Source of the DNA: Armatimonadetes bacterium Uphvl-Ar2
GTDB lineage: Bacteria; Armatimonadota; Fimbriimonadia; Fimbriimonadales; Fimbriimonadaceae
Direction: 5' to 3'
DNA length: 64,000 nucleotides
Assembly (NCBI GenBank): GCA_002162095.1
Contig: CP021424.1
Span: forward strand, 1,550,001-1,614,000
The notes under the pieces were generated by a model. It made no database searches and was not told the DNA's origin. It saw only the letters and a list, made by a program, of their open reading frames with translations. Below, one piece after another: positions 35,490 through 38,516 of this stretch (position 1 is its first letter; the number at the start of each line of letters is the position of its first letter). The translations under genes were made by a program, and so were the position numbers.

Positions 35490-35545
35490 GGATTATCTTG
35501 GCCCAAAACGGGCCCCCCGATGCTATTGTCGCAAGAAGATTGCGA

Positions 35546-35707
35546 TTACGCGGCTTTGGGTTGCGAAGCGAGCACGAGCGCGGTAATCACGCCCGGCACC
35601 CACCCAAGTACCGTCAGGATGGTCGTGATCACAACCGCCTTGGGTCCCCGGTCCAGGACGCCCAGGGGCGGGATAACGCAGCAGACGATGGCGCGAAGCG
35701 GATTCAC
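35546..35707 (-). CDS. YqaE/Pmp3 family small membrane protein
   Basis: A 53-aa proteolipid of the YqaE/Pmp3 (UPF0057) family. It reads [40 protein letters not shown] and [13 protein letters not shown]: two helices with the family's IPPLGV turn and PG-x-I-x-A motif. These peptides help with membrane potential and salt or cold stress. Start is GTG at 35705-35707, placed 6 bp after the TACACT of the shared inverted repeat. A longer in-frame ATG start exists but would run into the ileS gene. Confidence 0.88.
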
Positions 35708-35713
35708 GTTCCC

Positions 35714-35748
35714 AGTGTACCGGGCGGGCCAACCTCGCCCGGTACACT
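35714..35748. promoter_or_regulatory. Perfect 13-bp inverted repeat with two divergent -10 boxes
   Basis: AGTGTACCGGGCG (35714-35726) and CGCCCGGTACACT (35736-35748) are exact reverse complements around 9 bp. The outer end of each arm is TACACT in outward orientation: rightward it ends 11 bp before the ileS ATG, leftward 6 bp before the yqaE GTG. It looks like a shared divergent promoter/operator. Confidence 0.6.
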
Positions 35749-35759
35749 CGCGACTTCGC

Positions 35760-38516
35760 ATGGACTTTAAGCAGACCCTCAATTTGCCGGATCCGGATTT
35801 CACCATCCCCATGCGTGCGCAGCTTGGTCAGCGCGAACCTGAGTGGCAACGAGCATGGAACGAGGCGGATGCTTACCGCGCCATGCAGGATGCCCGGCGC
35901 AACGACCCCGCTTATGTTTTGCACGATGGACCGCCCTATACCAATAGTGCGATTCACATTGGCACTGCGCTGAACAAGATTCTCAAGGACTTCGTAGTGA
36001 AGAGCCGCCACATGATGGGGTTCCGCGCCCCCTACGTGCCGGGCTACGACAACCACGGTCTGCCGATCGAGCAGGCGGTGATGAAGAAGTTTGCCGAGCG
36101 CAAGGAGACGCCGGACCTGAAGGCGCTGCGCGAGGCCTGCCGCGCCCACGCCGAGGAGTACATCGCGCTCCAAACCACGCAGTTCTCGCGGCTCGGGATT
36201 CTCGGGACGTGGGATCACCCCTACACCTCGATGGAGTTCACCTACGAGGCCGAGATCATCCGCGTGTTTAAGCGGTTGGTGGAGGGTGGCTACGTCTACC
36301 GGGGTCTGCGCCCCGTGCTGTGGTCGCCGACCAGCCGCACGGCTCTGGCCGATACCGAAATCGTCTACCAAGACTACGTAAGCCGTAGCATCTACGTGCG
36401 GTTCCCGCTCAAGTCCGATCCGGACGGCGTCTTTGCCGGGCTGGAGGCCGTGCACTGCGTGATCTGGACGACAACCCCCTGGACGATCCCCGCGAACCTG
36501 GCGGTGGCGTTCCACCCTGAGCTGGAGTACGCCGTGGTGGCGCACGAAGGCGCGCACTACGTGGTGCTGGCCGACCTGAAGGACCGCGTGCTGAAGAAGC
36601 TGGGGTGGGCCGACGCCCCCACCGTGCGCACGCTCAAGGGCCGCGAAATTGAGAACGCGGTATTTGCCCATCCGGTGTACGGGCGAGATTCCCGGGCGGT
36701 GCTGGCGGACTACGTGACTACCGAAGACGGCACTGGCGTGGTGCACACGGCTCCGGGGCATGGTCGCGAGGACTTCATGACCGGTCAGAAGTACGGCCTA
36801 CCCGTGCTAAACCCCGTGAACGACGCGGGAGTGCTGACCGAAGAAGCGGGCGAATTCGCGGGCGTCTATTACAAGAAAGCGGACACCGTGGTGGTTGACC
36901 GTTTGGATGAATTGGGCCACCTGCTGAAGGCCGAAGACTATCACCACAGCTACCCGCACGCCGAGCGCGACGGGATGCCCGTGATCTTCCGCGCCACTGA
37001 GCAGTGGTTCATCCGCATTGACCATGCCGACCTGCGCCAGCGCATGCTGGCCCATATTGATAACCCCGCCACGGTGTTTGTGCCCGAGAGCGGACGCGGG
37101 CGCCTGCGCGGGATGATCGAGAATCGCCCGGATTGGTGCATCAGCCGCCAACGACCGTGGGGGGTGGGGATCCCGATCTTCTTCGGCGCGGAATCCGGCG
37201 AACCGGTGCTGGACCCGGTCGCGATTGAGGCCGTGGCGAGCCTGGTGGAGCGCGAGGGCAGTGATGCCTGGTACGTGCGGACGCCGGAGGAGATCCTCCC
37301 GGCGGGCTACCAGCACCCGGTGACGGGCGAGACAAGCTTCATCAAGGAGGCCGACGTCTTCGACGTGTGGTTTGATAGCGGCAGCACCGCCATGTGCGTG
37401 CTGGGCGGCAAGGTGGACCCGGAGTGGAAGGAGGAGATCCCCTGCGACCTCTATCTGGAAGGGAGTGACCAGCATCGCGGCTGGTTCAATGTCTCGCTGA
37501 TCTTGACGATGGCGTGCCTGGGCACTGCGCCGTACAAGGGCGTGGTGACGCACGGCTTTGTAACCGACGAGAAGGGCCAAAAGATGTCGAAGCGGCTGGG
37601 CAATGTGATTGACCCGGTGACGACGTGCGACACCCACGGCGCGGACGTGCTGCGGTGGTGGGTGGCCAGTGTCAACTTTGCCGACGATATGCCGTGCGGT
37701 GAATCGCTGCTGGCGAGCGCGGGCGAGCACTATCGCACGGTGCGGAACACACTGCGCTTCTTGCTTGGCAACCTAGCCGACTTTGAGCCTTCGATGTCCG
37801 TGCCCACCTCGGGCATCCATCAGTGGGTGATCGACCGCGCCAACCAAGTGGTGAAAGAAGTATGGGCGGCGTTTGATGAGTTCGACTTCCGCGCGGCGGG
37901 GACGGCCATCCACCAGTTCTGCGTGCAGGACTTGTCTCGCTTCTACCTGGATGCCATCAAGGACTCGATGTACTGTGATGGCGCGGATTGGTCCAGTCGC
38001 CGCCAAGCTCAGACGGCCTGCTACCACGTCGCGAAGACGTTGGCGCTGCTGATCTTCCCGATCTTGCCGCACACGGCTTACGAGGTGTGGGATCGTATCC
38101 CCGGGCAAACGGAAACCATCTTTGAGGCCCGTTGGCCGCGCTTGGACGTGACGCCCAGCACACTGGCGGTGGAAACCCTGCTGCGGGTGCGCCAAGAGGT
38201 TTTTGCCCAGATGGAAGCCTGGCGCGCCCAGGCGGGGGTGAAGGACTCGCAGGATATCGCGATTCACCTTACGGTGGATTTACCGACAATGCAAGACCTG
38301 CAATCGCTAGAGGGGCTGGAAAACCTGTTCCGGGTGGCCGAAGTGCACCTCACGGAGAGCGAAAGCGAGGCCATTGCGGTGCGATTTGAACCCAGTACCC
38401 TGCCGAAGTGTGACCGCAGCCGCGTCCGCCGCCCGGATGTGGCTACGGTGGAGTATCAGGGTGAGCAAGTTCAACTCTCGGCACGAGACCGCCGCGCCCT
38501 TGGCTTGGAAGCATGA
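35760..38516 (+). CDS. ileS: Isoleucyl-tRNA synthetase
   Basis: A 918-aa class I synthetase for tRNA-Ile. [20 protein letters not shown] carries the HIGH motif near residues 70-73. CP1 editing-domain motifs [14 protein letters not shown] and [12 protein letters not shown] are present, DVWFDSGST lies further on, and [15 protein letters not shown] is the KMSKS loop at about residue 607. The anticodon-binding domain follows. The C-terminal zinc finger is reduced: only [10 protein letters not shown] is seen. The frame is open to 35004, but this upstream part is antisense to the hydrolase gene; the start [18 protein letters not shown] fits the family. lspA overlaps the end by 4 bp. Confidence 0.96.

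Follow-up and report, generated by a model that had tools for sequence, protein, structure and literature searches.

Outward-facing leaderless promoters as the probable basis of a perfect inverted repeat between yqaE and ileS in a Fimbriimonadaceae genome

The short region between a Pmp3/YqaE-type gene and ileS carries a perfect inverted repeat that very probably represents two outward-facing -10 boxes of leaderless or nearly leaderless genes, that is, an ordinary divergent promoter pair with some extra symmetry that is not conserved. Two housekeeping-type boxes (GGTACACT) would lie back to back and each would direct a leaderless or nearly leaderless transcript, the left-going one for Pmp3/yqaE and the right-going one for ileS. 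We suggest that the mirror symmetry results mainly from the use of one strong -10 sequence on both strands. The additional 5 bp on the inner side of each arm (CGCCC/GGGCG) most likely reflect a coincidence favoured by the C-rich sequence before the boxes, or else a template switch that locally corrected an imperfect palindrome.

Results

The window, meaning the whole 64-kb stretch analysed, comes from a genome of the Fimbriimonadaceae (Armatimonadota) that we label G000; its relatives carry other G numbers. Sequence reading and a repeat search located the repeat within 35705-35762 and bore out its perfection, as had been claimed: the left arm, AGTGTACCGGGCG (35714..35726), and the right arm, CGCCCGGTACACT (35736..35748), are exact reverse complements of 13 nt, separated by a 9-nt loop, GGCCAACCT (35727..35735), in which one base is changed in G001 (arms and loop have no strand). 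No other perfect repeat in the window has arms of at least 13 nt and a loop of at most 30 nt, and in forty sequences simulated with a first-order Markov model the mean number of repeats was 0.0 for 13-nt arms and 0.225 for 12-nt arms.

On the minus strand to the left lies the gene for a 53-aa Pmp3/YqaE-type membrane protein with a GTG start (35546..35707; PF01679, 34.9 bits against a cut-off of 22.9). The gene to the right, on the plus strand, is ileS, encoding an isoleucyl-tRNA synthetase of 918 aa with its ATG at 35760 (35760..38516; TIGR00392 equivalog, 836 bits; PF00133). Both arms end outwardly in TACACT. The putative yqaE box (35714..35719, minus strand) stands 6 nt before the GTG and the putative ileS box (35743..35748, plus strand) 11 nt before the ATG.

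These positions fit a genome-wide rule. Among about 770 genes predicted by a simple codon-usage caller in 800 kb of the G000 chromosome, TANNNT peaks 6-11 nt before the predicted start codons. The bin at 6-8 nt holds 57 occurrences, compared with 9.5 per bin in the background; for TANANT the corresponding figures are 28 and 1.3. A sharp peak of this kind is, judged from sequence, the signature of leaderless genes. When 92 such predicted promoters were aligned, there was a mild preference for G directly before the box and no information at a -35 element, and we therefore rejected the idea of a shared -35 within the arms. The yqaE box lies at the genome mode (6 nt) and the ileS box at the edge of the range (11 nt), so that both genes have a box at a genome-typical start distance with no -35. 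A generic sigma-70 scan called no promoter at the locus, as expected where no -35 is present. By the same rule, yqaE would be transcribed from about 35707, the first base of its GTG, and ileS from about 35755, some 48 bp away, and the latter transcript would have a leader of a few nt.

The box sequence itself is associated with gene starts. Of the 14 distinct GGTACACT sites read in G000, ten immediately precede an ORF start and one more immediately precedes a tRNA; the genes behind them, named from their translations, include pheT, asnS, smpB and ileS. The base before GGTACACT is usually C in G000, the whole of CGCCCGGTACACT also occurs before pheT, and GGCCCGGTACACT occurs before a tRNA. The symmetry of the repeat therefore appears to be largely a matter of promoter composition.

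Further sequence sharing was seen around these sites. A 17-mer, CCTCGCCCGGTACACTC, is common to the promoters of ileS (window 35733-35749) and pheT (G000:C1:268179-268191, locus L001); pheT was identified as PheRS beta from its sequence, and GGTACACT is also present at asnS-like and smpB-like genes and at a tRNA. A separate sequence, CGCCCGGTACTCT, is found at four places in G000 (C1:12302, 13754, 2610066 and 2621986), two near each contig end. The first two copies stand before leaderless starts that are nearly identical, suggesting that these genes are duplicates.

Conservation was strongest on the ileS side. We read 30 ileS upstream regions (G000 and 29 relatives, representing about 30 genera), and in all 30 a TA[ACG]A[AC]T box precedes the ATG by about 9-15 nt, with GG in front of it in almost every case. 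Pmp3 is present in only 13 of 85 family genomes and diverges from ileS in eight of these, in five genera (G000, G001, G003, G009, G061, G016, G065 and G023), so the proposed link between a stress membrane peptide and IleRS is not a conserved feature. All eight genomes with the divergent pair retain the ileS box. Six retain a Pmp3 box: in G023 (AGTGTACC-10-GGTACACT) and G003 (AGTTTA...TAGAAT) its spacing differs, and in G016 and G065 it is the imperfect TACAAC. No matching box was found close to the Pmp3 start in G009 and G061. Pmp3 genes located away from ileS mostly have a box of their own a few nt before the start. Taken with the genome-wide signal, the conservation of the ileS box gives good support to the original prediction that the two TACACT sequences are divergent promoters.

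The inner part of the arms behaves differently. The proposed search for the repeat in relatives recovered the ileS box in every region read, but the inner arm was kept in G001 only; CGCCC is absent from the six other genomes with the divergent pair and from the other ileS upstream regions. G001 is a very close relative (IleRS 99% identical) that keeps both arms, and we did not take this as evidence of function, given that identity across the entire locus is about 94%.

Mirrored boxes are not confined to this locus. The pattern AGTKTACC-N-GGTAMAMT recurs across the family and the order above a backward-read control, and most family cases are flanked on each side by a start codon at a leaderless distance. 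Examples are an ispA-like/DUF1015-like pair in several genera and a metG-like/ileS pair in G020 and G093, with variable spacing (the names ispA-like, DUF1015-like and metG-like come from reading translations, not from a family search). In G000, roughly ten predicted divergent pairs in 800 kb have boxes separated by under 60 bp, and their arms measure 1-6 nt.

The ispA-like/DUF1015-like pair keeps its mirrored boxes across several genera of family f1 (loci L049, L050, L055-L057, L101-L106, L109 and L114), usually with a span of 35-37 bp, although some have 24 or 41. A preferred span of 34-38 bp was considered and dropped, since most family cases there represent this one conserved pair and the spans are broadly spread in the neighbouring family f2. 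Mirrored AGTGTACC...GGTACAMT pairs are much commoner in f2 (G041-G060, G109-G112), a family of the same order, than in the family of the window, and reach 12 strand-hits per genome.

Discussion

An eye-catching palindrome can arise simply from two strong outward-facing -10 boxes in a genome of leaderless genes. Leaderless promoters in which TANNNT is placed about 12 bp ahead of the start codon have been described (PMC3160421), as has a -10 motif in Deinococcus-Thermus (PMC12340547). The yqaE-ileS promoters resemble these in having a -10 box at the expected start distance and no detectable -35 in a high-GC genome, but they differ from those of PMC3160421 in that two stand back to back, and Armatimonadota are unmentioned in that study. 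Our analysis adds evidence at the sequence level that Fimbriimonadaceae use -10-adjacent leaderless promoters, aminoacyl-tRNA synthetase genes included. A literature search found no mapped transcription starts in Fimbriimonas.

The length of the arms was compared with chance expectation. Two random leaderless promoters of G000 would match over 13 nt with a probability of about 2e-5 in an independent-column model, but pairing the real promoters at random gave one 13-nt and one 12-nt match in 4186 pairs. It is possible, though we think it distinctly less likely than not, that template switching during replication copied one arm of an imperfect palindrome onto the other and extended the match to 13 nt, in which case the repeat would still function as two promoters. 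Homogenisation of arms by this route is an established process (PMC7202029, PMC8604942), and quasipalindrome template-switch mutation would likewise yield perfect arms around a short loop. The ispA-like/DUF1015-like locus of another genus (G061, G076) also has perfect 13-nt arms, with the inner sequence CCAAAGG, and in G009 the arms between these two genes are only 8 nt long, as this account would allow. However, no mutational intermediate was seen at the Pmp3-ileS repeat, only 2 of 24 cases in the family, and none of 65 in the neighbouring one, were extended by at least 5 nt, and the C-rich stretch ahead of GGTACACT makes a longer match more likely by chance.

Two divergent promoters so close together raise the question of competition, and the original prediction had polymerases colliding at one site. 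The geometry makes this plausible; mutual exclusion itself is our inference. Given the roughly 48 bp between the predicted starts, there is probably no room for two polymerases on the DNA at once and, by analogy with known systems, the two sites probably exclude each other sterically. The closest such system is the bidirectional promoters described by Warman, Grainger and colleagues (PMC12825309), in which one symmetric -10 is shared and starts are mostly 10, 18 or 23 bp apart. The yqaE-ileS pair shares with these a mirrored -10 sequence, predicted divergent transcription and probable exclusive polymerase binding. In contrast, its two hexamers are distinct and lie 23 bp apart, and its predicted starts are more widely spaced, where the known systems have one shared or overlapping -10 with starts about 10-23 bp apart. 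Steric exclusion was argued for those promoters too, but at basal activity competition between polymerases was reported to be too low to matter, which cautions against presuming a regulatory link here. A broader proposal, that back-to-back leaderless promoters in Fimbriimonadales are kept symmetrical by selection or recurrent template switching, with mutually exclusive sites tying the two gene outputs together, seems to us improbable.

The palindrome had also been proposed to bind a dimeric regulator of both genes, its arms serving as half-sites that overlap both -10 boxes. A perfect 13-nt dyad is longer than the column model predicts, and its position would let a bound repressor block both promoters. 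Nevertheless, we consider an operator very improbable: the dyad occurs once only in G000, its inner arm bases are missing from all the same-pair genomes beyond one close relative and from other ileS upstream regions, and retention in that relative is uninformative at a locus so nearly identical. Least credible of all, and close to negligible, is a structured element such as a DNA cruciform (another earlier suggestion), RNA hairpin or terminator. The repeat segment has a strong predicted fold as single-stranded DNA (-19.9 kcal/mol, z = -6.05), but the inner stem pairs are not conserved past G001, both predicted transcripts would begin beyond the repeat, to its left and to its right, and so lack it, and the repeat shows no T run and no called terminator; an RNA element was rejected for want of an Rfam match.

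One further observation concerns the small gene beside the repeat. Between G000 and G001 (locus L010), yqaE (window 35538-35696) has 36 differences in about 159 bp, mostly at third codon positions, whereas ileS and most of the DNA flanking yqaE differ by about 5%, with a sharp edge near 35696. This sequence contrast suggests recombination of the small gene.
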